64,000 nucleotides of DNA from Aureimonas sp. Leaf324 (GTDB lineage Bacteria; Pseudomonadota; Alphaproteobacteria; Rhizobiales; Rhizobiaceae), in contig NZ_LMOH01000002.1 in assembly GCF_001423245.1 (NCBI RefSeq), forward strand, positions 1-64,000, given 5' to 3'. The position numbers and the translations under genes are program-made. A model generated the notes under the pieces. That model did not search any database and had not been told where the DNA came from. It saw only the letters and a list, made by a program, of their open reading frames with translations. Position 1 is the first letter of the stretch. The number at the start of each line of letters is the position of its first letter. Shown here piece after piece: positions 30,489 to 46,989 of the stretch.

Positions 30489-31526
30489 TTGGCAACAATC
30501 CGAGACGTCGCAAAAGTGGCTGGGGTTTCTACGGCAACCGTGTCGGCGGTGGTCAACGATACTGCCTATGTCAGTCCCTCGTTGCGGGCCCGTGTCCTGG
30601 CCGCGATCGTCGACCTCGACTACGCCCCGATGTCGGCCGCCCGCAATCTGAAGCGCGGCCGCAGCCAGCTGATTGCGTTGGCCGTATCGGATTTGAGCAA
30701 TCCGTTCTTCGCCCGCATTGTCTGCGCCGCCGAGGCGGCGGTGGCCGACTGGGGTTACTCGCTGGTTCTCTTCAACAGCGATGAGAAGCCGGAGAACGAG
30801 CGGCGGATCCTCGCTCGAGTCCGAGCCCTGTCGTGCGATGGGCTTATGTTGGTTCCGATTGATGCGAGCCTGCGCCTTGATGGCCGCGATGGGGAAGGCG
30901 GCCGGATCCCGACCGTCCTGTTCGGGCGACGCGTTGCGGACGATCGCTGTGACACTGTTACAATCGATAATGTCTCGGCGGCTCGGCAGGTCGCCAACTA
31001 CCTCCTTGATCTTGGTCACCGCCGCATCGCGACGATCACCGGACCGCTTCATCTAACCACGGGGCGAGGGCGTCTCGACGGCCTCCTGGAGGGAATGGCG
31101 GCACGGGGTCTGGAGCCTGAGCCTTCGCATATCCGCAACGGAGCGTTCCGAGAGGACGTCGCTTATTCGGTGGCTCGAGAGCTGCTGACGAGTGCTGACC
31201 GTCCCACCGCGATCTATGTCGCCAACGGTGTCATGGCGCTCGGTGTCATGCGGGCGCTTGCTGACCTTGGGTTGTCGTGCCCGAACGACGTGTCCATCGC
31301 GTCCACTGACACTATTCCGGGCATCGGCGGGCTGCGTCCTCGCCTGACGCGAACGGAACATCCGATTTCGGACATGACCAACGAGGCGCTGCGGCTGCTT
31401 GTCGACCGTATCGAACGGGGGCCGGCCGCAGATCCTCGGAACGTCGTGTTCCAGCCAGCTTTGATCCTAGGTGAAAGCTGCGGGCCGGTGCAGCAGACCT
31501 TCGGCGCTTCAGCATCCGTTTTGTAA
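30489..31526 (+). CDS. LacI-family transcriptional regulator
   Basis: A 345-aa protein: HTH (MATIRDVAKVAGVSTATVSAVVNDTAYVSP) plus a periplasmic-binding-type effector domain (LIALAVSDLSNPFFARIV...RLTRTEHPISDMTNEALRLLVDRIE). The start is TTG 30489 with GGAG five bases upstream. It faces the sugar transporter operon and should repress it until the sugar binds. The last residues (ASASVL) and the stop codon are read from the tRNA-Thr remnant at 31511-31564: TAA is bases 36-38 of the tRNA. The C-terminus has therefore probably been rewritten by integration. Confidence 0.88.
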   Translation: MATIRDVAKVAGVSTATVSAVVNDTAYVSPSLRARVLAAIVDLDYAPMSAARNLKRGRSQLIALAVSDLSNPFFARIVCAAEAAVADWGYSLVLFNSDEKPENERRILARVRALSCDGLMLVPIDASLRLDGRDGEGGRIPTVLFGRRVADDRCDTVTIDNVSAARQVANYLLDLGHRRIATITGPLHLTTGRGRLDGLLEGMAARGLEPEPSHIRNGAFREDVAYSVARELLTSADRPTAIYVANGVMALGVMRALADLGLSCPNDVSIASTDTIPGIGGLRPRLTRTEHPISDMTNEALRLLVDRIERGPAADPRNVVFQPALILGESCGPVQQTFGASASVL

Positions 31527-31564
31527 ACCGAAGGTCGGGGGTTCAATCCCCTCAGCCGGCACCA
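31511..31564 (+). other. tRNA-Thr(TGT) 3' remnant, attachment-site-like
   Basis: From 31511 the sequence follows a tRNA: anticodon arm with loop TTTGTAA (anticodon TGT at 31522-31524), variable region, T-arm GGGGGTTCAATCCCC, acceptor AGCCGGC and discriminator-CCA at 31561-31564. The 5' half (acceptor 5' strand and D-arm) is missing and is replaced by lacI codons; one anticodon-stem position is mispaired. A 3' tRNA fragment without its 5' half is the usual trace of tyrosine-integrase recombination. It is not a functional tRNA gene. Confidence 0.75.
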
Positions 31565-33246: not shown

Positions 33247-34857
33247 TTACGCTCGATCGAAGATGCAGGCCTCGAGTTCACGATAAACCGCCATTTCCGG
33301 CGTCATGTGCTTAGACAACTCGATCTTAAAGGCGTCAGCGGTAATGCTGCCGACGATTCCGCAGATGCTCCGGATTCGGTTCGTATCATCCTTCAGGTTC
33401 TGGTTTGCGATATCCTGCACGAATGCGTCATAAGCCTCCTCGTTAAACTGCTTCTGGTTCGCCGCGCAGAAGGCTTTCAGCACTTCCTTATCGTAGAGGT
33501 AGTTCTCAATTTCCCAGCGCTTCAGGACACGATGATTTTGCCCATTCGTTCTCAGGTAGATTTGTCGATCGTTCTCATTGGTATCCCTGCCGGATGCCAT
33601 GTCGCGATCCTTCAAAACCCAGATGTCGACGGCTGGGAACACCTTTCCAAGGACTGCCAAGGCGATGGCGCTCCTTTGATCGGGCTCAGTATTGCCGCCG
33701 CTCGATGTGAAAAAGGCTTCGGGCCGTCCCCTCGCGAAGATGTTGTTGAAGACCTGCGCATCCATGCCGCGCTCACGATTATTTGGGCCTGGTTCTGCCC
33801 GGCCTTCACAATAAACGATCGTTGAGGGGCTGATGAGGTGAGCGAGATCGTCGAGCGCGATCGAGAATAGGTCGCGCCAAGTACCCGGGCCAACCTCGAC
33901 AGGGCGCAGCACGTGGGCTTCCGACGCTAAGCTATGTTCTGGCTTGAATTGAACTATCTGACATTTGTCATGCAACTTGAGCTGCAGGGCACGGATGAAG
34001 CCAATGCTGTGCGTCGTAATCCAAAGCTGACACCTCTCTCCAATGAGACGATCGATCTCAACAAGAAGATTACCTTGAATTGACGTGTTTATATGTAGCT
34101 CAGGCTCATCGATTAAAAAGACGGTATCATCGTAATCATCTTTGCGGAGATATAAATCAAGTAGAATGTCCACCACCTCCTTTTCGCCATATGATAGCAC
34201 ATTGAATTCAAATTCGTGCGGATGATCCGGCTTGGAAAAATACAGAGTTCCCTGACTTCCTTCAACGTTTCCAATTCCTGAAATTTCTAGATCTAGGCAG
34301 TTCTTCAGAGATTTGTTCAAATCACCGATGATCTTAGCCTTCGCCTCGCTTGGCTTGAGATCGTTGTCATCCCGATATTTATTGTACATCGCGTATAGGA
34401 GGCGGTAGTTTGCCTCCATTTTTCCATCGATCGCACCAGCATACGCTGCTCCGTACTGGTTTTGACGGATCGGATCGACAGCTCTCGTCTCAGTAATCTT
34501 GAGATTATTGTTGTATCGATATGGACTTCGAAAAGAAAATATGGTGTTTCCTTTATTCTCTTCGGCGCGTCTATGATATTGGGCTCCATAGTCCCCTGTT
34601 GTGAACATCACCTCTACGCTGGTTGCGTTGATAATGACATCTGAGCGCATCGAGTAGTAACTGTTTTCTCTGTTGAAATGTGTTCCAACATGGTTCCATT
34701 TGCTTGCGTGATGCATGAGCCCGTCTAGGACGCTACTCTTCCCGCAACCGTTTGGGCCGACTAGCGCAACAATGCGTTTTGGATTTTCGCCCAAATCGAT
34801 AGTAAGGTCGTGGAAGCGCTTGTACCCATTCTTTAAACGAATCGATTTTATGAACAT
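33247..34857 (-). CDS. AAA ATPase-TOPRIM/DUF4435-like fusion, PARIS-like defence protein
   Basis: A 536-aa protein. Residues 1-330 form an ABC/SMC-type AAA ATPase: Walker A VGPNGCGKSSVLDG, signature-like LSYGEKEVVDILLDL, Walker B TVFLIDEPELHIN and ITTHSIGFIRAL. Residues ~345-530 carry TOPRIM/DUF4435-type motifs: TIVYCEGR, VDIWVLKDRDM and RWEIENYLYDKEVL. This joins in one chain the two parts of the PARIS anti-phage system (AriA ATPase, AriB DUF4435 effector); OLD-family nucleases are the nearest alternative. The gene is visibly richer in A+T than its neighbours, as expected for transferred defence cargo. No helicase or methylase partner is adjacent. Confidence 0.7.
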   Translation of the reverse strand: MFIKSIRLKNGYKRFHDLTIDLGENPKRIVALVGPNGCGKSSVLDGLMHHASKWNHVGTHFNRENSYYSMRSDVIINATSVEVMFTTGDYGAQYHRRAEENKGNTIFSFRSPYRYNNNLKITETRAVDPIRQNQYGAAYAGAIDGKMEANYRLLYAMYNKYRDDNDLKPSEAKAKIIGDLNKSLKNCLDLEISGIGNVEGSQGTLYFSKPDHPHEFEFNVLSYGEKEVVDILLDLYLRKDDYDDTVFLIDEPELHINTSIQGNLLVEIDRLIGERCQLWITTHSIGFIRALQLKLHDKCQIVQFKPEHSLASEAHVLRPVEVGPGTWRDLFSIALDDLAHLISPSTIVYCEGRAEPGPNNRERGMDAQVFNNIFARGRPEAFFTSSGGNTEPDQRSAIALAVLGKVFPAVDIWVLKDRDMASGRDTNENDRQIYLRTNGQNHRVLKRWEIENYLYDKEVLKAFCAANQKQFNEEAYDAFVQDIANQNLKDDTNRIRSICGIVGSITADAFKIELSKHMTPEMAVYRELEACIFDRA

Positions 34858-36327: not shown

Positions 36328-37133
36328 CAGGCAGCGACCTTTGCCAGCTTGGCGGCCTTCCGGGCGCGCTTGGCAGCGGCTCGGTCGAGTTCCGGTGAAT
36401 GGATCGCAGACTTCTGGAAGGGCTCCGGTTCGATCGGCACACCCGGTTCGTCCGCCCAGCGATGCACGACGCGCTGCGACACGCCGTCCTTCGAGACCTC
36501 CGTCAGCGTGATGTGCCCGCCGACGAGGGATATCGGCGTCGTGCCGGTGAACGCGCTCCCCATGTCCGCGGGATCGACCATCATGCGCCGTTGGGCCTCC
36601 ATGATCGGGATGCCGTGACGGATCGGATCGAAGCGACGGACCGCGTCGTCGCCTTCGAGGCTGGCGCCGAGCGACCGGAGGTTCACGAACCATTCCTCGC
36701 CGGACGGGTATGGGCCGACGGTGAACTCGTCGATCTGCTCGACTTCGCCGACGGCATAGTCCGTGCCTTCAGCACGGGTCATGAAGTTGAGCGCCTTCAC
36801 TCGCTGCTCATCGTCCGACCAGCCGACGACATAGAGATCGACGTCGGCCCAAGACGTGTAGCCGGCGTCGCGCGCACGCAGATCCTGCCACTCGCTGAGG
36901 TCGTCCTGAAGCCGAGCGGCGAGATCGTCGAAGGAGCGATAGCGAATGGAGAAGTCGAGCGCGAACTCGGCGACGACCTTCTGCAGGCCGCGGACGGCGA
37001 TCGCCGCGTTCAGGTTCGGGATCGGCATCGCCTTGTTGCCGAAGCCCACGATATGGCCATCCGGCAGATAGAATGCGCCGTCGGTCATCAGGAAGGCGCG
37101 GTCAGGCCGCACGAAGACGTTGATTGCCGTCAT
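36327..37133 (-). CDS. Hypothetical phage-type protein downstream of the tape measure
   Basis: A 268-aa protein from ATG 37133 with GGAG seven bases upstream, overlapping the tape-measure 3' end by 32 bases. It starts MTAINVFVRPDRAFLMTDGAFYLPDGHIVGFGNK and continues as a compact alpha/beta protein with a Lys/Ala-rich tail (RAAAKRARKAAKLAKVAA). I do not know its function. It is coupled by TGATG to the next gene. Confidence 0.6.
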   Translation of the reverse strand: MTAINVFVRPDRAFLMTDGAFYLPDGHIVGFGNKAMPIPNLNAAIAVRGLQKVVAEFALDFSIRYRSFDDLAARLQDDLSEWQDLRARDAGYTSWADVDLYVVGWSDDEQRVKALNFMTRAEGTDYAVGEVEQIDEFTVGPYPSGEEWFVNLRSLGASLEGDDAVRRFDPIRHGIPIMEAQRRMMVDPADMGSAFTGTTPISLVGGHITLTEVSKDGVSQRVVHRWADEPGVPIEPEPFQKSAIHSPELDRAAAKRARKAAKLAKVAA

Positions 37134-40100
37134 GATCGAACTCCATTGCCCGCTCACGGTGGGCCTTCGGATTGGATTTGCCGCCGCCGATCGGCGACGC
37201 GATGATGCCGACACCGGCACCGAGTGCCATGCCGACCGGGCCAGCTGCCGAGCCGAGACCGAGCGCGCCACCGAACTGGCCGGCGAGCTCATAGCCGCCC
37301 ATCAGGCCCGAGATACCGCCCATCAGCGGATTGCCCGATGAGTAGGCGTTGCCCGCGATGCCGGCGAGGCCCATGAGGGCGCCGAAGCCCGCCTGGCCGC
37401 GCGACATGCCGGGCGTCGCGCCCTGGCCGGCGTAGCCTGTGTCGAACCGCCCGGCGCCGTAGCTCTCGATGCCGTCTTCGACACCCTTCGACACGCCCTT
37501 CGCGAGATCGCGCGTCGTGCCGCCGAGGATGCTGTCGGCCTTCGCGAAGTGCGAGGCGAACTGGTGATCGACCTTGTCGCGGACCGAGCCCCACGTCCCG
37601 CCGTTTGCGGCGTCCGACGCGCCGTAGCGCCCCGGGCGGCCGGCGTTGATCGTCGAGTACAAGTCGTAGATGTCCATGCCGGGCTTGAAGCCGCGGTCCT
37701 GGAGATAGCCGACGACCGCGTCCATCTGGTCGGAGAGCGTCTGTCCGATCGCCGCGCCGTAGCGCTTCTGCTCGGTCGGGCCGAACTGAATCAGGCCGAT
37801 GTGACGATCGCCCGCACCACCGCGGATGCTGGTCGAGAAGCTGCCGCCGGTCTCGAATGAGATAACGGCCGCTAGGTCGCGAGCCGTGGTCCCGATCCGG
37901 TTGGCACCATCCTTCAGGACGTCGGCGAGCGACGAACTGGCACTCGTCATCTTCGTGGCGGCCGCGGTCGCCGCCGGCAAGGCGTACTTGTCCGCGTAGG
38001 GATAGCTCGGCGACTGGTAGGCCGGGCGCGCCGTCGGGATCGGGACGTTCTGGTTGGCAGCGAGGCCACCGAGGATCGACACGACGTTGTTCCGGCCGGT
38101 CTGCCCGTCGCCGAACAACCCGCCGAACAGCCGCTCGAAACCGGCCGAAGCGAGCTTCTGCCCGAGGCCGGACAGTGCCTGCGCCAGGTTGTCGACAAGA
38201 CTGCCGCCCTTACCGAGCGCTTCGATGATGCTGCCGAAGACGTCTGAGGCCACTTGGCCCATATCGGCCATCGCGTCCTGCTGGGCGCGGACCGAGTCGT
38301 TGAACCGCATTGCGGCGGCGAGCCGCTGCCCCTCGAAGCTGTCGAAGTCGAGATCGAGATTGCGGATGGTCTGGCGGATTTCCTGCTCGCTGTCCGTGAA
38401 GCCGAGGATCGACCGCTCGAACTCGACGTCGGCAGTGAACTCGGCGATGCGCTCGCGCTGACGCTTGGCGTCCTCGGCCGCCTTCTGCCGCTCGCGCTCG
38501 GCCGAGGTGTTCGTGCGGATCTTGTCGGTCAGCCGGCCGATCTCGTCGGCCTCCCGGTTGATCTGGTCGACGAGGGCCGGATTGATAGCGCCGGCCTTCG
38601 CGTCGTTCGCGGCGCGCTGCGCCTCGGTCATCGCGTCAAGCTTGAACCGGGCAGCGGCGATGGCGCCCTCGCTCTCGCCGTACATGTCGACCTGAAGCCG
38701 CAGCTCGGCGACGGACTTCTCGATGCTGGCCTTCTGTTCGGCCACGGCATCGGAATAGGACCGGGTCGCGGTCTCGGTCTTCGTCAGCGCGGCCGCCTGG
38801 TCCTCAAGCTGCTTGCGCAGATCGTCCGTCACGTCCGGGTTGATCCGGTCGCCGAAGCGACGCTCGAGCGCCGCGTTGTCCGGCCTGTCCTGGGCGGCCG
38901 GCTTCGGCAGGCGCGAGCGCGAGTTGACGATCGCATCCATGGCGGCCTGAAGAGCCTGCGTGTTCGTGGCGGCGTTCATGACGTCGGTGCCGAGACGGCG
39001 CATCTCGCCGGCCAACGCTTTGACCTCGTCGCTGGCGCCCGGCTTGATCTGGATTTGCGCCATGCGCTCGACGAACGCCTTGGCTTGTATCTCGCCCCGG
39101 CTGAACTGCCCGTAGAGCTCGCGGATCTCGGCCTGCGCGTTGCGGACCTCGCCGTTGAAGAGGTCGAGCACGGCCTTCGCGCTGCCAAGTGTGCCCATGT
39201 CGAGCCGGACCGCTTCACCACGGCCGAGGTTCTCGACGGCGCCCTTCAGTTCGTCCTTCGCGACCTTCAGACTGTCGACGAGTTGGCCGACCGCCATGCC
39301 CTCTGTGAGCTTGGCGCCGGCCGAATAGACGAGATCAGCAGCGCGACCCGCTTCGCCGAAGCTGTCGCGAACGGCGTCGACTGAGCGCTTAAACTCGTCC
39401 ATCGAGTTCTTCGCGGCCTTGGCCTCGGGGCCATCCGACATGAGCCACAGCGCGCCGGCCGCCGCCGTCGTGGCGCCGAGGGCGATGCCCACCGGGCCGA
39501 GGGACGTGACGAACCCGCCAACCGCTGTCGCGATCGCGCCGATGCTGGATTTTATACCGCCGCCTTCCTGCAGCACTTGCGCGACCTGACCGGCCTGCGA
39601 AGCCAGGATCTGGAACGGCGACGCGCCCATCGCGAGCATCGTGCCCATGTCGTTCAGCTGGAAACCGAGGCCCTGCACCTGGCCAGACGTCAGCTTCACG
39701 TTCTGGTTCGCAGCCTCGGCGCCTTTGCCCATCTGGTCGAAGCGTTTGGCCGCGGTCGCGAGGATGACGTTGCCCTGCTCGGTCGTCAGATTGCGAAGGC
39801 CGATCTGGTGCGCGACGTCCTGTTCGACCTTCAGGTATCGGGTGGCGTTGGCGTACGTGTCGTCGTAGGCGCGACGGAGGTTTTCGGCACGCTTCATCTC
39901 TGCCGAGGCCAACTTGTTGACCGCCTCGGCAGCCTTCAGACTCTCCGTCTGCTGCTTACGCAGCGCGTCGCCGAACGGTTTCAGCTCGGCGGTCAGCGCC
40001 TTCGTCATCGAGGCCATCTGACGCTCGGCCTCAATGGCTGGCTTCATGCCAGCGGCCAGCGACTTGTAGGCGGCTGGGTCCATCTCGGCCTTCATCCGCT

Positions 40101-40221
40101 TCAGCGTCGCGGCCGCGCCCTCGGTCTGCTGCCCGAATGCCTCGACGTCGCGCGCACCTTTCTAGATACCGGACGTATCGGCGGTGACGATGAGCTTGCG
40201 GGTGACTGTCGCTGCAGCCAT
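37102..40221 (-). pseudogene. Phage tail tape-measure protein with an early in-frame amber
   Basis: From ATG 40221 the frame reads MAAATVTRKLIVTADTSGI, then TAG at 40162-40164 (codon 20), then KGARDVEAFGQQTEGAAATLKRM and on to 37102, about 1,039 codons. The N-terminus has the expected tape-measure style and its ATG overlaps the previous stop (TAATG), so this looks like the true start. The body has long coiled-coil helices, a membrane-like central stretch (SIGAIATAVGGFVTSLGPVGIALGATTAAAGALWLM) and a C-terminal Gly-rich region. A 997-aa product could start at ATG 40095, but no ribosome binding site is seen there. Either a nonsense mutation, a sequencing error or amber readthrough. Confidence 0.78.
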
Positions 40222-40469
40222 TAGCTGCGCCCCCCAACCTGCCGATCGTGGCTTCGGCCACTATCTGCACGCGAAACGACGCCAGCGTCGAAGTCGCCAC
40301 GGCGGAAGACGCCCGGGAACGTTTGACCGGCCCGCGCGAGTTTCTCTGCCGCCGCTCGAATGGCGAACTCGTTCGGCGTCACGCCCGCACGGTTGGCGGC
40401 GTCATGAATGGCTTCCCGGAAGCCACTGGTGACGCGCGCACCGCTGAGAAAAAGCTGAGCTGTTGCCAT
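40221..40469 (-). CDS. Small protein coupled to the tape-measure gene
   Basis: An 82-aa protein (SGARVTSGFREAIHDAANRAGVTPNEFAIRAAAEKLARAGQ). The central VTPNEFAIRAAAEKL resembles a ribbon-helix-helix or short helical unit; the tail is Arg/Asp-rich. Its TAA overlaps the next ATG as TAATG. In tailed phages the position before the tape measure is held by tail assembly chaperones, but the sequence gives no proof of that role. Confidence 0.5.
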   Translation of the reverse strand: MATAQLFLSGARVTSGFREAIHDAANRAGVTPNEFAIRAAAEKLARAGQTFPGVFRRGDFDAGVVSRADSGRSHDRQVGGRS

Positions 40470-40574: not shown

Positions 40575-40862
40575 TCAACAACTGATGCCAAGCGACAGGA
40601 AGTAGCGCGTAAGTGCTGGAGAGTCCCGGTGCCCCTCGCGAAGCAGGTCGAGCGCCTGCCGATCCCCATATCGCTTCGCCTCGAGCGCCACAGCAGAGAT
40701 CTCCCATGGAGCGCCCAGCGATGAGCGTCGACCAATGCCATCCTCCTTGCACCAACGTCGGATCGTTTTCTCGTTTTTACCGGTGCGATAGGCCGCCTCC
40801 TTCAGCGAGATAATCTCTTCCGGGCGCATCAGGACAGGCGAGGGGAGCGTACTGGTGGTCAT
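40575..40862 (-). CDS. Helix-turn-helix protein, excisionase/MerR-like
   Basis: About 95 aa from ATG 40862 with GGAGAG nine bases upstream. EEIISLKEAAYRTGKNEKTIRRWCKEDGIGRRSSLGAPWEISAVALEAKRYGD is a MerR/excisionase-type winged helix followed by a short dimerisation tail. The frame is open to 41327, but that part is the repeat region and looks non-coding. It sits between the origin-like repeats and the tail module, so it could regulate either. Confidence 0.65.
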   Translation of the reverse strand: MTTSTLPSPVLMRPEEIISLKEAAYRTGKNEKTIRRWCKEDGIGRRSSLGAPWEISAVALEAKRYGDRQALDLLREGHRDSPALTRYFLSLGISC

Positions 40863-41262
40863 GGAGGGAAACTCTCCAGATGTTCGGGGGACAGATGCAG
40901 GTGCGGGCATGGGCAGCCGAACGCGCCAGCGGGCTAAATTCTTACGAGCAAAAAAAATCTGCGAATGAGGCCCCTGTCGGTAGACACCCCCACGACCGCC
41001 CTGACTTTCGATCCCCCCTCTCGTCGGGGTCGATCGATGGGCATCGACAGAGGGTGGCGGAGCTTCGACGACGGACGACATTGGAATCTCATCCGTCGTC
41101 GTCCGTCGGTCGTCCGTCACATCAAGGCACTGTTCTAATTGGGTTTTCGCCGTGACGGACGACGACGGACGACATTTCCCTACCTTCTCTAGGCAGTGCT
41201 CCTGTACGTCTCTACCGATCGCCCAAACAGCATCGTTCAAAGAGTTGTTGGGATGTCGTCCG
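40863..41262. other. Non-coding region around the iteron-like array
   Basis: About 400 bases between the primase-helicase stop and the helix-turn-helix gene hold the six repeats, an A+T-rich patch and no supported gene. Long frames crossing it are Arg/Ser-rich and match no family. It is a likely origin and promoter region. Confidence 0.55.
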
Positions 41263-41264
41263 TC
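41067..41264. repeat. Iteron-like array of a 10-bp repeat (candidate replication origin)
   Basis: GACGGACGAC occurs six times without mismatch in under 200 bp: forward at 41070-41079, 41154-41163 and 41164-41173 (the last two tandem), and reverse at 41098-41107, 41109-41118 and 41255-41264. Several copies carry flanking GACGAC. An A+T-rich stretch with an A8 run (about 40935-40965) lies to the left. The array directly follows the primase-helicase gene, whose stop codon overlaps the last copy. This is the layout of iteron origins, such as that of satellite phage P4. Confidence 0.65.
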
Positions 41265-43515
41265 ATTTGGTCGCCCGAGCCCACGGAATGTTCCCGCGAC
41301 GGTCCTTCTTCTGCCTCGTCCAGCCAAGGCGTGTCATCGCAGCGGTGATACGTGTCTGTTCCGCACGCCCTAGGCGCGACGTCGCTATGAAGAGCGCGTC
41401 CCGCGCCACGTCGCCGACAAGGACGGAGCCGGGCTGCTCGTCGAGGAACTTGGCAAGGTTCGCCTCCCAAGCGTCCTCTTCAAATCGAGCGTCTTGTTCC
41501 GGCGCGATGTGCTCGCGCTCGAACGTGGCGTCCGGCCACCACGGGTCGCCGGCTTCGAAGCGCACGACCGCTTCGGCGAAGAGCTGATCACGATCACGTG
41601 CCAGCGCGTCGATGTCGATCGCGCCTACGCCTACCGGCCAGAACCGACGACCTCCGCTCTCGTCCCGCAGATAGACTGAGGCGTTGGTCGTGCCGATGAA
41701 GATGCACTGCCTCGGCTGGTCAACCTCGAACTTTCCGTAGGGCGGACGATACCGTTCATGGGTGCGGGTGATGAATGCCTTCAGGGCGGCATGATCCGCC
41801 TTGCCCATCGCGGACATCTCGGCGACCTCGATCAGCCATTTCCCCGCGAGATGGATCGACGCATCTTTGCCCTGCCGAATGTCCGGAAGAGCGTCCGAGA
41901 ACCAGGCGCCTGCCAAGACGGCGCAAGCCGTGGACTTCTTCGCACCTTGTGCGCCCTCGAGCACGAGCATGTGGTCGGCCTTCACGCCCGGCCGGCGGAT
42001 ACGTGCCACGAGTGCGATCAGGAACATTATGCCGATCGCATCGATGTACGGGCTTCGCGACGCGCCGAGGTATCTGCCCAGCCAACCGGCGAGCCGAGAC
42101 GTACCGTCCCAGCGCAGACCGTTCAGATAGTCGCGGACCGGGTTGAACGATCGCTCCGACGCACGCATCGCCATCCCGCGCGTCGTCACACCCTCGCCAA
42201 TGCCGCGCAGTCCTTCGCTCTGCAGGTAGCATTCGAGGACAGAGATGTCGGTATCGACGACGGGGCGCGGGGCAGCAAGGTCTGGCTCGTCCGGCAGGGC
42301 ACGCATGAGCATGGGCCGCGCCTGCATTTCGTCGAAGGCGAAGCAGGCGCTGATCTTCGGATCCAACCGAAGGGCCGTGACGACATTCTTCAGGATTGAA
42401 AGTGGTTCACCGTTCTTGGCCTTGATAGCTGCGGCGAGCCACGCTTTCCGAGGAGCCGTAGAGCCCTCGACGTCCTCGAAATGTGCGGCGGGGTCGACTG
42501 GACCATCCAGCTTCGGCCATGCATCGTCGAGCGTCTTAGGCCAGCTGTCCCGGTCCAGGTACTTTTCGGCGACGCTATCAGGGAACGCCTCCCAGATCGC
42601 TCGCGCTTCCGCCTTGCTGAACCCGGCTCGCTTTATCTTTCCCGTGCATGAGAACCAGTGACTGGACCTGTCACGACCGGCCGGGAGGTTCTCGATGTCG
42701 TGTCGGACGTGCTTCGGAAGCCGCTTGAGGACGGCATCCGTCTCGTCGATCGTCAGTCGAACGTTGTGGCCTTTCACCGGCTTCGCAGCGACCGCGTCCG
42801 TCGTGCTTGGCACGGCAGGCAGCAGACCCGCAAACGCGTTCGGATCGAACGCAGCTCCCAGCGACACGATGTAGGTTGGGCTGTCGGTACGGCCGTGCCG
42901 CTCTCTCTTATCCTGCGAGGGCATATTCTGCGTGCCAGCAAGCCGGTACGGCTGCACGGGATTCCCCGTGTTGGCATCACCCCCCAGCTTCCGCAGCCGA
43001 TCGCCGATGTCCTTCGCATTCTTTGCAGAAAGCAGACGATCGAAGACGAACCAACGATGTTCGTTGTCCGGCTCCGAGGATCGCACGACGAGTGAGGGAA
43101 CAGCGAACGATGCCGGTCGCTCGCCATTGTAGGCGTCGACGTCGATGACGAGAGCAAACACGCCGATCGTGTCGCCTTCGGCTTGCCCGCGTTCCTTCGG
43201 ACCTAAGCCGGGCCGCACGAGGCGCGGCTCGACGTAGCAGTTCCAGCCTTCCTGAGAATGGCGCACGGCAGCGCGGATCATCTGCTCGCGCTCACCCAGC
43301 ACGAACCGTTCGAGGACCTGGAACAGCGGCTTTCCTTTAAAGTCGAGCCTGGTCCGATGCTGGCCGGTGATCTGCAAACGTCCACCGCAAGCGCCGTCGC
43401 TCGCCGCGGCTCTGGCCACGTCGTGGATCCAATGAACGAAGGCCGTAATCTGCTCGACGTCGGGCGTCAGCGCCTTGGCAACGCTCGCCGGGTAATCCAT
43501 AATAAGTGCGGACAA
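41263..43515 (-). CDS. VapE-type primase-helicase
   Basis: A 750-aa replication protein. Residues ~60-240 look like an archaeo-eukaryotic-type primase domain (VFALVIDVDAYNGERP, SEPDNEHRWFVFDR, GNPVQPYRLAGTQNMP). A linker like the primase C-terminal domains follows. The last ~330 residues are a virulence-associated-E (PF05272-type) helicase: YLNGLRWDGTSRLAGWLGRYLG, Walker A LEGAQGAKKSTACAVLAG, LIEVAEMSAMGKADHAALKAFITR and IFIGTTNASVYLRDESGGRRFWPV. Such proteins replicate phages and phage satellites. The start is TTG 43515 with AGGA upstream; ATG 43500 is an alternative. The iteron-like array lies directly downstream. Confidence 0.87.
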   Translation of the reverse strand: MSALIMDYPASVAKALTPDVEQITAFVHWIHDVARAAASDGACGGRLQITGQHRTRLDFKGKPLFQVLERFVLGEREQMIRAAVRHSQEGWNCYVEPRLVRPGLGPKERGQAEGDTIGVFALVIDVDAYNGERPASFAVPSLVVRSSEPDNEHRWFVFDRLLSAKNAKDIGDRLRKLGGDANTGNPVQPYRLAGTQNMPSQDKRERHGRTDSPTYIVSLGAAFDPNAFAGLLPAVPSTTDAVAAKPVKGHNVRLTIDETDAVLKRLPKHVRHDIENLPAGRDRSSHWFSCTGKIKRAGFSKAEARAIWEAFPDSVAEKYLDRDSWPKTLDDAWPKLDGPVDPAAHFEDVEGSTAPRKAWLAAAIKAKNGEPLSILKNVVTALRLDPKISACFAFDEMQARPMLMRALPDEPDLAAPRPVVDTDISVLECYLQSEGLRGIGEGVTTRGMAMRASERSFNPVRDYLNGLRWDGTSRLAGWLGRYLGASRSPYIDAIGIMFLIALVARIRRPGVKADHMLVLEGAQGAKKSTACAVLAGAWFSDALPDIRQGKDASIHLAGKWLIEVAEMSAMGKADHAALKAFITRTHERYRPPYGKFEVDQPRQCIFIGTTNASVYLRDESGGRRFWPVGVGAIDIDALARDRDQLFAEAVVRFEAGDPWWPDATFEREHIAPEQDARFEEDAWEANLAKFLDEQPGSVLVGDVARDALFIATSRLGRAEQTRITAAMTRLGWTRQKKDRRGNIPWARATK

Positions 43516-45235: not shown

Positions 45236-45288
45236 TGCGACTTGCACCTATTGTTAATAAGCGTGCGCTATGTTGATTGCAAGTCGCA
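45236..45288. promoter_or_regulatory. Paired inverted operators in the divergent control region
   Basis: TGCGACTTGCA at 45236-45246 and its exact reverse complement TGCAAGTCGCA at 45278-45288 flank 31 bases that include TTGTTAATAA. The centres are 42 bp apart, four helical turns, so bound repressors would face the same side. The sites lie between the Arc-type gene and the AlpA-like operon. Confidence 0.65.
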
Positions 45289-45306
45289 CTCACGGGATTT
45301 ATGTTG

Positions 45307-45651
45307 ATGAGCGATCGAGAACGTTACCCAAGCGAAGCGGCTGACAGGTTTCAGGTCCGAATGACGAGCGGGTTGCGCGATCGAATTCGGCAGGCCGCAG
45401 AAGCGAACAATCGTTCGATGAACTCTGAAATTGTCGCGACTCTTGAGGAGAAGTATCCAGCCCCAGAGCCGGCTACGATCGAGGAACTGGAGGCGGCAAT
45501 TCGAGGGATCACGGAGCTCCTCGATCGAGCCGGGCCGAACGGCCAGGACGAGAGGATTCAGGAACTTGCTCGTCTGCTGGTGGAGCGTTGGTTCGAGCCA
45601 CCCGAAGAGGCCGCCCCCAAGAAGAAGCGTGGGGAATTGGATCGAACCTGA
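45307..45651 (+). CDS. Arc-family ribbon-helix-helix DNA-binding protein
   Basis: About 114 aa from ATG 45307, nine bases after GGGA (ATG 45301 and an upstream start are alternatives). The N-terminal half is Arc/Mnt-like: DRFQVRMTSGLRDRIRQAAEANNRSMNSEIVATLEEKY. The rest is an acidic helix (EELEAAIRGITELLDRAG) and a Lys-rich end. Arc proteins bind as paired dimers to operators such as the inverted sites at 45236-45288. It is probably the element's repressor, cotranscribed with the integrase 14 bases downstream. Confidence 0.8.
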   Translation: MSDRERYPSEAADRFQVRMTSGLRDRIRQAAEANNRSMNSEIVATLEEKYPAPEPATIEELEAAIRGITELLDRAGPNGQDERIQELARLLVERWFEPPEEAAPKKKRGELDRT

Positions 45652-45665
45652 AGAGGAGTGTGCAT

Positions 45666-46877
45666 ATGGCCGGCGTTTCGAAGCGAACTTGGAAGACGTC
45701 GAGCGGCGCACCGCGGCACAGCTGGCAGGTCGATTACGCCGACGAGACCGGCGCGAGGCAGCGGAAGCAATTCAAGCTGAAGAAGGATGCGGACGCCTTC
45801 CGCATCAAGGTCGAAGGCGGCCTCGCCGAGGGGACGTACCGCAGCAAGGCAGAAGGCACGACGGTTCGAGATGTCGTGCTCGCCTATCTCGAGCACGCCG
45901 AGGGCCGCAACGAACGCGGCGAGCGCTTCACGAAGGCGCACCTGCTCGTCGTGACCGGGCACATTCACAACTACATCTGCCCGAACCCGGAGCATCGCGC
46001 GAAGCGTAAGGTGAAGACCCAGGTCCGTGAGTTCGATGCTGGTCTCGCGACCATTCCTCTGTCGAAGCTCACGGCGGGTACGATCGGCGATTACCGCGAT
46101 CGGGTTCGGGCTGCCGGCGTCGGGGTCGTCACGACGCGAAAGATCCTTACGACCCTCTCCGCGGTGCTGGCCTTCGCGGTCTCTAAAGACCTCGTCGCCT
46201 TCAACGCTGCGACCGGCGTTCGTGTGATCGGCCGACGCGATGAAGGAGCCAAGAAGATCGTCCCGCCTAGCAAGGCGGCCATGCGCTCGTTGATTGAAGC
46301 GGCTGGTCCTGACTTCAAGGTGCAACTCGTCTTCGCTGCTGCATCGGGTCTGCGGGCAGGGGAGCACCATGCGCTGCGCTGGCGCCATATCGACTTCAAG
46401 GCGAGAGAGGTCACGGTCGAGACCCGCGTGGACGCTTTCGGCAACGAAGACACGACGAAGACTGCCGCCGGCGTCAGGACCGTGCCCCTGGCCTCCACTG
46501 TCGTCACGATGCTGAAGGAGTGGCGCCTACGGTCGAAGTTCGCGAAGGACGACGATCTCGTTTTCCCGAGCCGGTCAGGCAGCTACGAAGGTCATCCGAA
46601 CCTCGTGAAGCGTCGCTTCAATCCACTTTTCAAGAAGCTGGCAGCATCGCACGCGGCGGACCCGGAGAAGCATCCGCCGGCGCCCCAACGCTTCAACTGG
46701 CACGCTCTGCGACACTTCGCGATCTCAGGTTGGATCGAGGCAGACTTGAAGCCGAAGACGGTCCAGACCTTCGCCGGTCATTCGAGCCTTCAGGTGACCA
46801 TGGATCGATACGGGCACATGTTCAAATCCGACGACCATGGGGCGGCGATGGATCGGATCACCAGCGGCCTGCTCTGA
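45666..46877 (+). CDS. int: Tyrosine-family site-specific integrase
   Basis: About 403 aa from ATG 45666, with GAGGAG seven bases upstream. It has an N-terminal arm-binding region (SWQVDYADETGARQRKQFKLKKDADAF), a SAM-like core-binding domain, then the catalytic domain with Arg in ASGLRAGEHHALRW, HALRHFAISGW and AGHSSLQVTMDRYGHMF (the Tyr nucleophile). The gene points at the tRNA-fMet fragment 70 bases downstream, which marks its attachment site. It should integrate and, with the AlpA-like protein, excise the element. Confidence 0.92.
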   Translation: MAGVSKRTWKTSSGAPRHSWQVDYADETGARQRKQFKLKKDADAFRIKVEGGLAEGTYRSKAEGTTVRDVVLAYLEHAEGRNERGERFTKAHLLVVTGHIHNYICPNPEHRAKRKVKTQVREFDAGLATIPLSKLTAGTIGDYRDRVRAAGVGVVTTRKILTTLSAVLAFAVSKDLVAFNAATGVRVIGRRDEGAKKIVPPSKAAMRSLIEAAGPDFKVQLVFAAASGLRAGEHHALRWRHIDFKAREVTVETRVDAFGNEDTTKTAAGVRTVPLASTVVTMLKEWRLRSKFAKDDDLVFPSRSGSYEGHPNLVKRRFNPLFKKLAASHAADPEKHPPAPQRFNWHALRHFAISGWIEADLKPKTVQTFAGHSSLQVTMDRYGHMFKSDDHGAAMDRITSGLL

Positions 46878-46941: not shown

Positions 46942-46989
46942 GGGCTCATAACCTGAAGGTCGCAAGTTCAAATCTTGCCCCCGCAACCA
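46942..46989 (+). other. attR-like site: 3' part of initiator tRNA-Met(CAT)
   Basis: From about 46942 the sequence is the 3' half of an initiator tRNA: anticodon loop CTCATAA (CAT at 46947-46949), stem CCTGA, AGGTC, T-arm GCAAGTTCAAATCTTGC, acceptor CCCCGCA and terminal ACCA at 46986-46989. The D-arm and 5' acceptor strand are absent; upstream bases only partly restore the anticodon stem. This is the remnant left at the far end when a tRNA-targeting integrase recombines. The intact tRNA should lie at the other end of the element, and I do not see it in the window. Confidence 0.8.

Follow-up and report, generated by a model that had tools for sequence, protein, structure and literature searches.

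The Rep-ori replicons described from Gram-negative and staphylococcal islands keep their origin immediately 3' of rep (as outlined in PMC6092414), and in SaPIs the iterons that directly follow rep are reportedly read by the C-terminal domain of Rep (PMC7581432). A similar case has been known since 2020 from SCCmec, where the report describes the helicase Cch2 as binding, through its C-terminal domain, direct repeats just after its own gene; Cch2 is related to the SaPI5 Rep (D5-type) and has three 5-nt iterons (PMC7581432). The alpha protein of P4 is presented as a multifunctional primase-helicase, carrying a Toprim primase, whose winged helix reads repeats at the P4 origin, and for ORF904 of pRN1 the same account gives an origin 3' of the rep gene that is a stem-loop of about 100 nt, with no iterons described there (PMC4234260). 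The satellite PLE, as far as its report goes, uses an unrelated RepA_N initiator (PMC7145576). In the literature that we searched, no paper linked VapE with iterons or with an origin of replication. To our knowledge, VapE, the 'virulence-associated protein E', is seldom assigned a function. We describe here an array of short repeats at the end of a vapE gene in an island of Aureimonas sp. Leaf324, and we consider it highly likely, on comparison with related loci, that these repeats serve as iterons in a replication origin of the element, to which VapE binds in cis, through its winged helix, where the vapE gene ends.

The repeat array at the end of vapE

The window, that is, the whole stretch of 64 kb of DNA analysed, contains an island, running from about 31.5 to about 46.94 kb, that carries an integrase, an Arc-like protein, vapE, the array, a small HTH ORF, tail genes and a defence-like ATPase. 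The features of vapE and of the array are the following.

41263..43500, minus strand: vapE, encoding a 745-aa primase-helicase (PF05272, 9.4e-73; AlphaFold model; best Foldseek match 7pds)
41266..41496, minus strand: predicted C-terminal winged-helix domain of VapE, the proposed iteron reader (model mean pLDDT 87)
41070..41264, no strand: iteron array, proposed origin; six exact GACGGACGAC and one degenerate copy, at a place that matches the arrays of relatives
41255..41264, minus strand: iteron 1, two bases of which belong to the vapE stop codon
41154..41173, plus strand: iterons 2 and 3, a tandem pair spaced 10 bp, inverted relative to vapE
41088..41118, minus strand: iterons 4 and 5, 11 bp apart (exact copies at 41098 and 41109), with a degenerate copy at a further 10 bp
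41070..41079, plus strand: iteron 6, inverted relative to vapE
about 40938..40987, no strand: weak A+T-rich patch (54% A+T, best 50-bp window)

Six exact copies of GACGGACGAC lie at 41070-41264 and none elsewhere in the 64 kb (0.50 expected as a mean; 0 of 100 shuffles reach six). They are placed at 41070(+), 41098(-), 41109(-), 41154(+), 41164(+) and 41255(-), three per strand, and span 195 bp. The initial annotation, which had reported six perfect 10-mers, three in each orientation, within 195 bp, with a tandem pair at 10 bp (41154/41164) and a reverse pair at 11 bp (41098/41109), is borne out by these positions and by the shuffles. A degenerate copy with two mismatches (41088-41097) makes the reverse pair three in phase, and a further two-mismatch match (41105-41114) overlaps true copies. 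Other 10-mers that do not overlap GACGGACGAC reach at most three non-overlapping copies per 200 bp anywhere in the window.

Because the copy at 41255-41264 overlaps the stop codon of vapE (TGA, 41263-41265) by the two bases GA, the array begins inside the end of vapE. The earlier description of the repeats as lying in non-coding DNA directly downstream of the gene is right as to the place but not as to this first copy. The DNA of the array is presumably non-coding; a minus-strand frame (40575-41327) is open across it, and the GC3 of this frame upstream of the HTH start, which speaks to this point, is 0.55, versus 0.68 in the HTH ORF and 0.75 in vapE. The A+T-rich patch that had been noticed close by does exist, but it is modest, and windows over the array hold 40-48% A+T, with no clear A+T-rich core between the inverted repeat sets.

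When the genome is counted (4,415,253 bases in 30 contigs), exact GACGGACGAC is found 43 times, six times in the array and 37 times scattered, the closest pair of the 37 being about 9.5 kb apart. As a word, GACGGACGAC is thus no rarity; its clustering, on the other hand, is unique to this place, with a Poisson probability of about 1e-14. A 10-mer common genome-wide had been named in advance as a sign against an origin; there are 43 copies, yet the 37 others are scattered, and the count does not tell against the origin reading. Across 394 genomes of the host's family, a search for the exact inverted word pair matched only the window's own genome.

VapE and the closest described replicons

The helicase domain of VapE occupies approximately residues 354-672 and the winged helix approximately residues 676-745. 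In the AlphaFold model the helicase has pLDDT values mostly above 90 and the small C-terminal domain is confident, with residues 1-350 mostly poor. Predicted alone, the C-terminal domain shows three helices and two strands; its Foldseek matches are weak (best E 0.0076, none at or below 0.001), and many of the 50 listed are what we take to be winged-helix chains, of the cohesin Scc1-C, Fur/Mur, Zalpha and MarR types. The only solved relative of VapE at a phmmer E of 0.1 or less is 7pds (1e-36), which also comes first by Foldseek (1.3e-25, TMt 0.72). Its record names PriRep1 with dsDNA, 'Similar to D. nodosus vapE', and PriRep1 is presumably the initiator of a staphylococcal pathogenicity island (SaPI). 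By Pfam, VapE has no Toprim domain and its N-terminal 345 residues have no direct match. Given that an N-terminal relative of VapE in one surveyed locus (L032, 37% identical) has a RepB_primase match (8.8e-5) that falls slightly short of the cut-off, the N-terminus is likely to be a primase of the archaeo-eukaryotic type.

The layout had been likened to the iteron origin of P4 alpha. Repeats beside a multifunctional primase-helicase are indeed common to the window and to the alpha/ori/crr system of P4, but, because PriRep1 (7pds) is the solved structure nearest to VapE in both sequence and fold, the island Rep-ori is the better parallel. The alpha protein carries a Toprim primase, whereas VapE has none by Pfam, a distinction drawn from domain descriptions, and the window's VapE falls outside the P4-type satellites as defined by an alpha with Toprim. 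We take PriRep1 and the SaPI origin as the parallels to this proposed replicon. The Rep-ori of SaPIs and PICIs (e.g. the pri-rep-ori of EcCICFT073) resembles the present locus in having a homologous helicase with a C-terminal DNA-binding domain, which is predicted here, and short iterons immediately 3' of rep in inverted sets. It differs in its word and host group, and its iteron sets enclose an A+T-rich region, whereas the inverted sets in the window have no clear A+T-rich core. PICIs are recognised by att sites with int, a regulator, xis/alpA, pri-rep and an ori module; in the window no att pair is found and a tail gene is present, so the element is not classed as a PICI. The island around the array is prophage-like or composite and includes tail genes. 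SCCmec Cch2 is like our proposal in its repeats directly after the helicase gene and differs in being D5-type with three 5-nt iterons; pRN1 ORF904 likewise has a C-terminal winged helix and a gene-end origin, both predicted here, but, unlike the window, no iterons in the account cited above. Taken with the survey that follows, these comparisons indicate that the array is very probably the VapE-read origin of the island, which would be of the Rep-ori kind and outside the recognised PICIs.

Repeats at the end of vapE in related loci

Loci were gathered by VapE protein similarity alone, blind to repeats, and repeats were scored in fixed windows around the vapE stop. A scan of genome contigs with a single VapE protein found nothing, and loci were retrieved with an alignment as query. 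The sources were the best 80 of 595 and the best 80 of 552 related loci, loci of the host's family from 22 of 394 genomes, and plasmid and phage records, 5 of the 20 and 2 of the 40 listed. In total 190 loci entered, 188 were oriented (two had no stop) and 171 were kept, the window included, after removal of duplicates and of loci with less than 450 bp downstream.

We find significant short repeats at the vapE end in 117 of the 171 loci when 7- and 9-mer pair counts in 300 bp at this end are compared with dinucleotide shuffles (z of at least 3). The same test is passed by 5/171 and 1/171 control windows inside vapE, 9/162 at +1000 and 7/146 upstream. With one locus per 80%-identity cluster the figures are 87/115 against controls of 4/115, 1/115, 6/107 and 4/97, and among 48 nearer-kin loci, hand-picked by locus number, 43 pass. 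Passes are spread over viral contigs (53/75), genome contigs (49/69), phage and plasmid records (5/7), the host's own family (9/19) and the window (1/1). A Poisson test (score of at least 3 in 400 bp beginning 20 bp before the vapE stop) gives arrays in 88/171 loci (51%), with 0-1% in windows lying wholly before the stop, as far as 4 kb upstream, and 1-6% in windows starting 600-3000 bp downstream; when window starts from -200 to +600 are allowed, 98/171 have arrays. Of the 88 Poisson-positive loci, 59 have the start of their first repeat no more than 30 bp from the stop, and 11 have it before the end of the stop codon; the spacing of repeats in these 88 peaks at 9-10 and 18-20 bp, approximately one and two helical turns. 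A+T at +50 to +250 exceeds the locus mean by 6 to 9 points in the 88 array-positive loci and by 4 to 5 in 75 clearly negative ones.

The z test is failed by 54/171 loci. A group with Rhodobacterales record titles (e.g. L157, and L051 alike; z 1.1 and 0.3) has no array at the vapE end; these two and their kin fail both tests, and several of the kin have their strongest array 1.8-3 kb away. Three loci (L155, L126 and L136) fail by Poisson score yet hold visible short arrays and pass the z test, and the host's own family, with its 9/19 by z, reaches 3/19 by Poisson score. Phage Haddon fails near the stop, its repeats starting about 380 bp after it. Loci L168, L170, L163 and L055 have no array at the vapE end and a strong one in the window starting about 1.8 kb on, as if the origin had moved or the array belonged to another initiator.

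Repeat words and the winged helix

The words differ among elements: plasmid pKNA06 has GGTGGCATCA six times, plasmid pGO128 CAGCACTA four times and Marinobacter phage PS3 GGGGTGACC seven times; GGTCACCCC is another natural repeat word, and AGGTTGGAC, ACTGGGACA and others occur in further loci of the survey. Arrays reach up to 13 copies near helical phase. In pGO128, a plasmid of 4340 bp, vapE is the only initiator-like gene among the five listed in a gene table that is possibly incomplete.

The word GACGGACGAC is common to the window and to locus L009, and TGACGCA is found in a large sister group. L009 bears an exact GACGGACGAC at the same -2 offset from the vapE stop, with three one-mismatch and three two-mismatch copies, and of the 37 other C-terminal domains aligned its own is the most like that of the window (54%; 59% over residues 374-740). 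With a Poisson score of 2.1, below the limit, it stands outside the covariation set, which comprises the 88 loci scoring at least 3, and it would be the key independent case for the specificity of the word.

Within the 88 loci, word similarity climbs with winged-helix identity: it is 0.32 where that identity is below 20% and 0.89 where it is 80% or more. With core identity removed, word and winged helix remain correlated (partial Mantel r 0.239, 0/999 permutations); the correlation of word with core given the winged helix is weaker (0.097, not permuted). Only five pairs combine a winged helix of at least 50% identity with a core below 60%, and the link between winged helix and word is therefore partly confounded with relatedness.

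The proposed origin

Arrays at the same place in relatives and words that track the winged helix argue for the claim with which this study began, namely that the repeats are iterons of a candidate origin beside the VapE primase-helicase. We suggest the following course of initiation, in which binding, melting, priming and replication by VapE at the array are all deduced. VapE would attach in cis to the iterons at the vapE end, using its C-terminal winged helix, and the 10-11 bp phasing of copies in the two orientations would seat two groups of protomers; the VapE helicase ring would then melt and unwind the neighbouring DNA, and synthesis would be primed by the N-terminal primase-like domain or by the host. 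There is good reason to expect, though with somewhat less assurance than for the single array, that placing an iteron origin where the initiator gene ends, at its 3' side, is a general VapE/PriRep design in prophages, small plasmids and islands and no special mark of PICIs, the winged helix of each lineage setting its own word of 7-11 bp.

Repeats at the same place after vapE are now seen in plasmids (pGO128, pKNA06), in phage PS3 and in many uncharacterised islands. If the proposed binding is true, VapE is a predictable, self-contained initiator, and in any genome the search for its origin can start at the vapE stop codon; if the family rule is true, the VapE/PriRep family is a natural library of protein-DNA specificity pairs that can be read from sequence. 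The proposed family-wide rule and the link between word and winged helix are of more value than the single array.

The island and alternative readings of the array

Is the island that carries this array still capable of replication? Its other features, and its flanks, are the following.

31521..31564, plus strand: left flank, 3' piece of tRNA-Thr(TGT), not the tRNA of the right flank
33247-34857, minus strand: AAA ATPase, 536 aa (best PADLOC match AriAB, E 1.4e-29)
37102..40095, minus strand: tail tape-measure protein (PF06791, 2.8e-12)
40575..40862, minus strand: small HTH, excisionase-like ORF (two PHROG excisionase families at about 1e-4; no Pfam match)
45277..45651, plus strand: Arc-like ribbon-helix-helix protein (PF03869, 3.1e-13)
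45588..46877, plus strand: tyrosine integrase (longest frame, start unsettled; PF00589, 2.2e-20)
46943..46989, plus strand: right flank, 3' piece of tRNA-Met (CAT), the gene being intact at this locus in the sister genome G404

The tRNA fragments were first spotted by eye and then confirmed, and empty-site comparison was made with the genomes G404 and G401: homology with G404 stops at 46943 on the right, and with both at 31489-31499 on the left. ARAGORN gives no intact tRNA gene in the window, and an att direct repeat joining the two presumed ends of the island was looked for and not found. The differing tRNA ends suggest two integrations or a rearrangement. Because the ends are different tRNAs and no direct repeat joins them, the island is probably composite or rearranged and its excision cannot be predicted. 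Read by eye, the tape-measure frame is interrupted by a TAG near 40161; an upstream ATG lies some 20 codons before it, at 40222, so the gene appears shortened or decayed.

The earlier suggestion that the element, now integrated, is able to replicate in circular form is not supported, in view of the att repeat that was not found, the flanks from different tRNA genes and the stop in the tail gene. The same evidence makes it an even call, in our estimate, whether the array is a relic, once a true origin, in an island that is now a decayed composite and no longer excises or replicates, a reading compatible with that of an origin. To it may be added that the part of the island ORFs scanned holds no portal or capsid gene and a single weak PHROG label of 'terminase large subunit'. 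Against decay, the frames of vapE and of the integrase are open and have their domains, and the identity of all six repeats suggests recent selection or recent arrival.

It is unlikely that the repeats are operators through which a regulator of the element, the HTH protein (40575-40862) or the Arc-like protein (45277-45651), controls the genes beside the array. Inverted 10-mers are a common operator shape, the HTH ORF starts about 0.2 kb past the array on the side away from vapE, and pGO128 too has an HTH gene after its array. However, arrays are found at the vapE end in loci that were chosen by vapE only, the genes past the array vary in the loci inspected, the similarity of words follows the winged helix of VapE, the one protein compared in this way, and up to 13 copies near helical phase are unusual for operators.

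Still less likely is that the functional unit is a hairpin of the inverted copies, a stem-loop origin or a terminator after vapE, with the word as its by-product. The single strand of the array does fold at -52.6 kcal/mol (z -6.57, 0/200 shuffles), and in pRN1 the origin past the rep gene is described as a stem-loop (PMC4234260); yet perfect inverted copies fold well of necessity, relatives show many short-spaced phased copies, and the stems have no T-run immediately after them, a run of T8 being about 110 bp further along. Chance clumping of GAC-rich words in GC-rich DNA can be set aside, for although GACGGACGAC occurs 43 times in 4.4 Mb against 8 for the same pattern read backwards, 0/100 shuffles and a cluster probability of about 1e-14 stand against it, as does the identical word at the identical place in L009.

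Further observations on the insertion site and cargo

Given that G401 holds a cobalamin riboswitch at the same hot spot (L222:3521-3796), the kinase-to-lacI interval is a variable site. No rRNA was found in the loci where it was sought (L201 and L222-L224). Another 3' fragment of tRNA-Thr(TGT) occurs elsewhere in the genome (L203; G000:C12:2711-2742), in a 3-kb locus with no intact tRNA gene, and is perhaps another insertion scar. The ATPase gene at 33247-34857, whose AriAB match we take to be a fused PARIS, is probable anti-phage cargo of the island.
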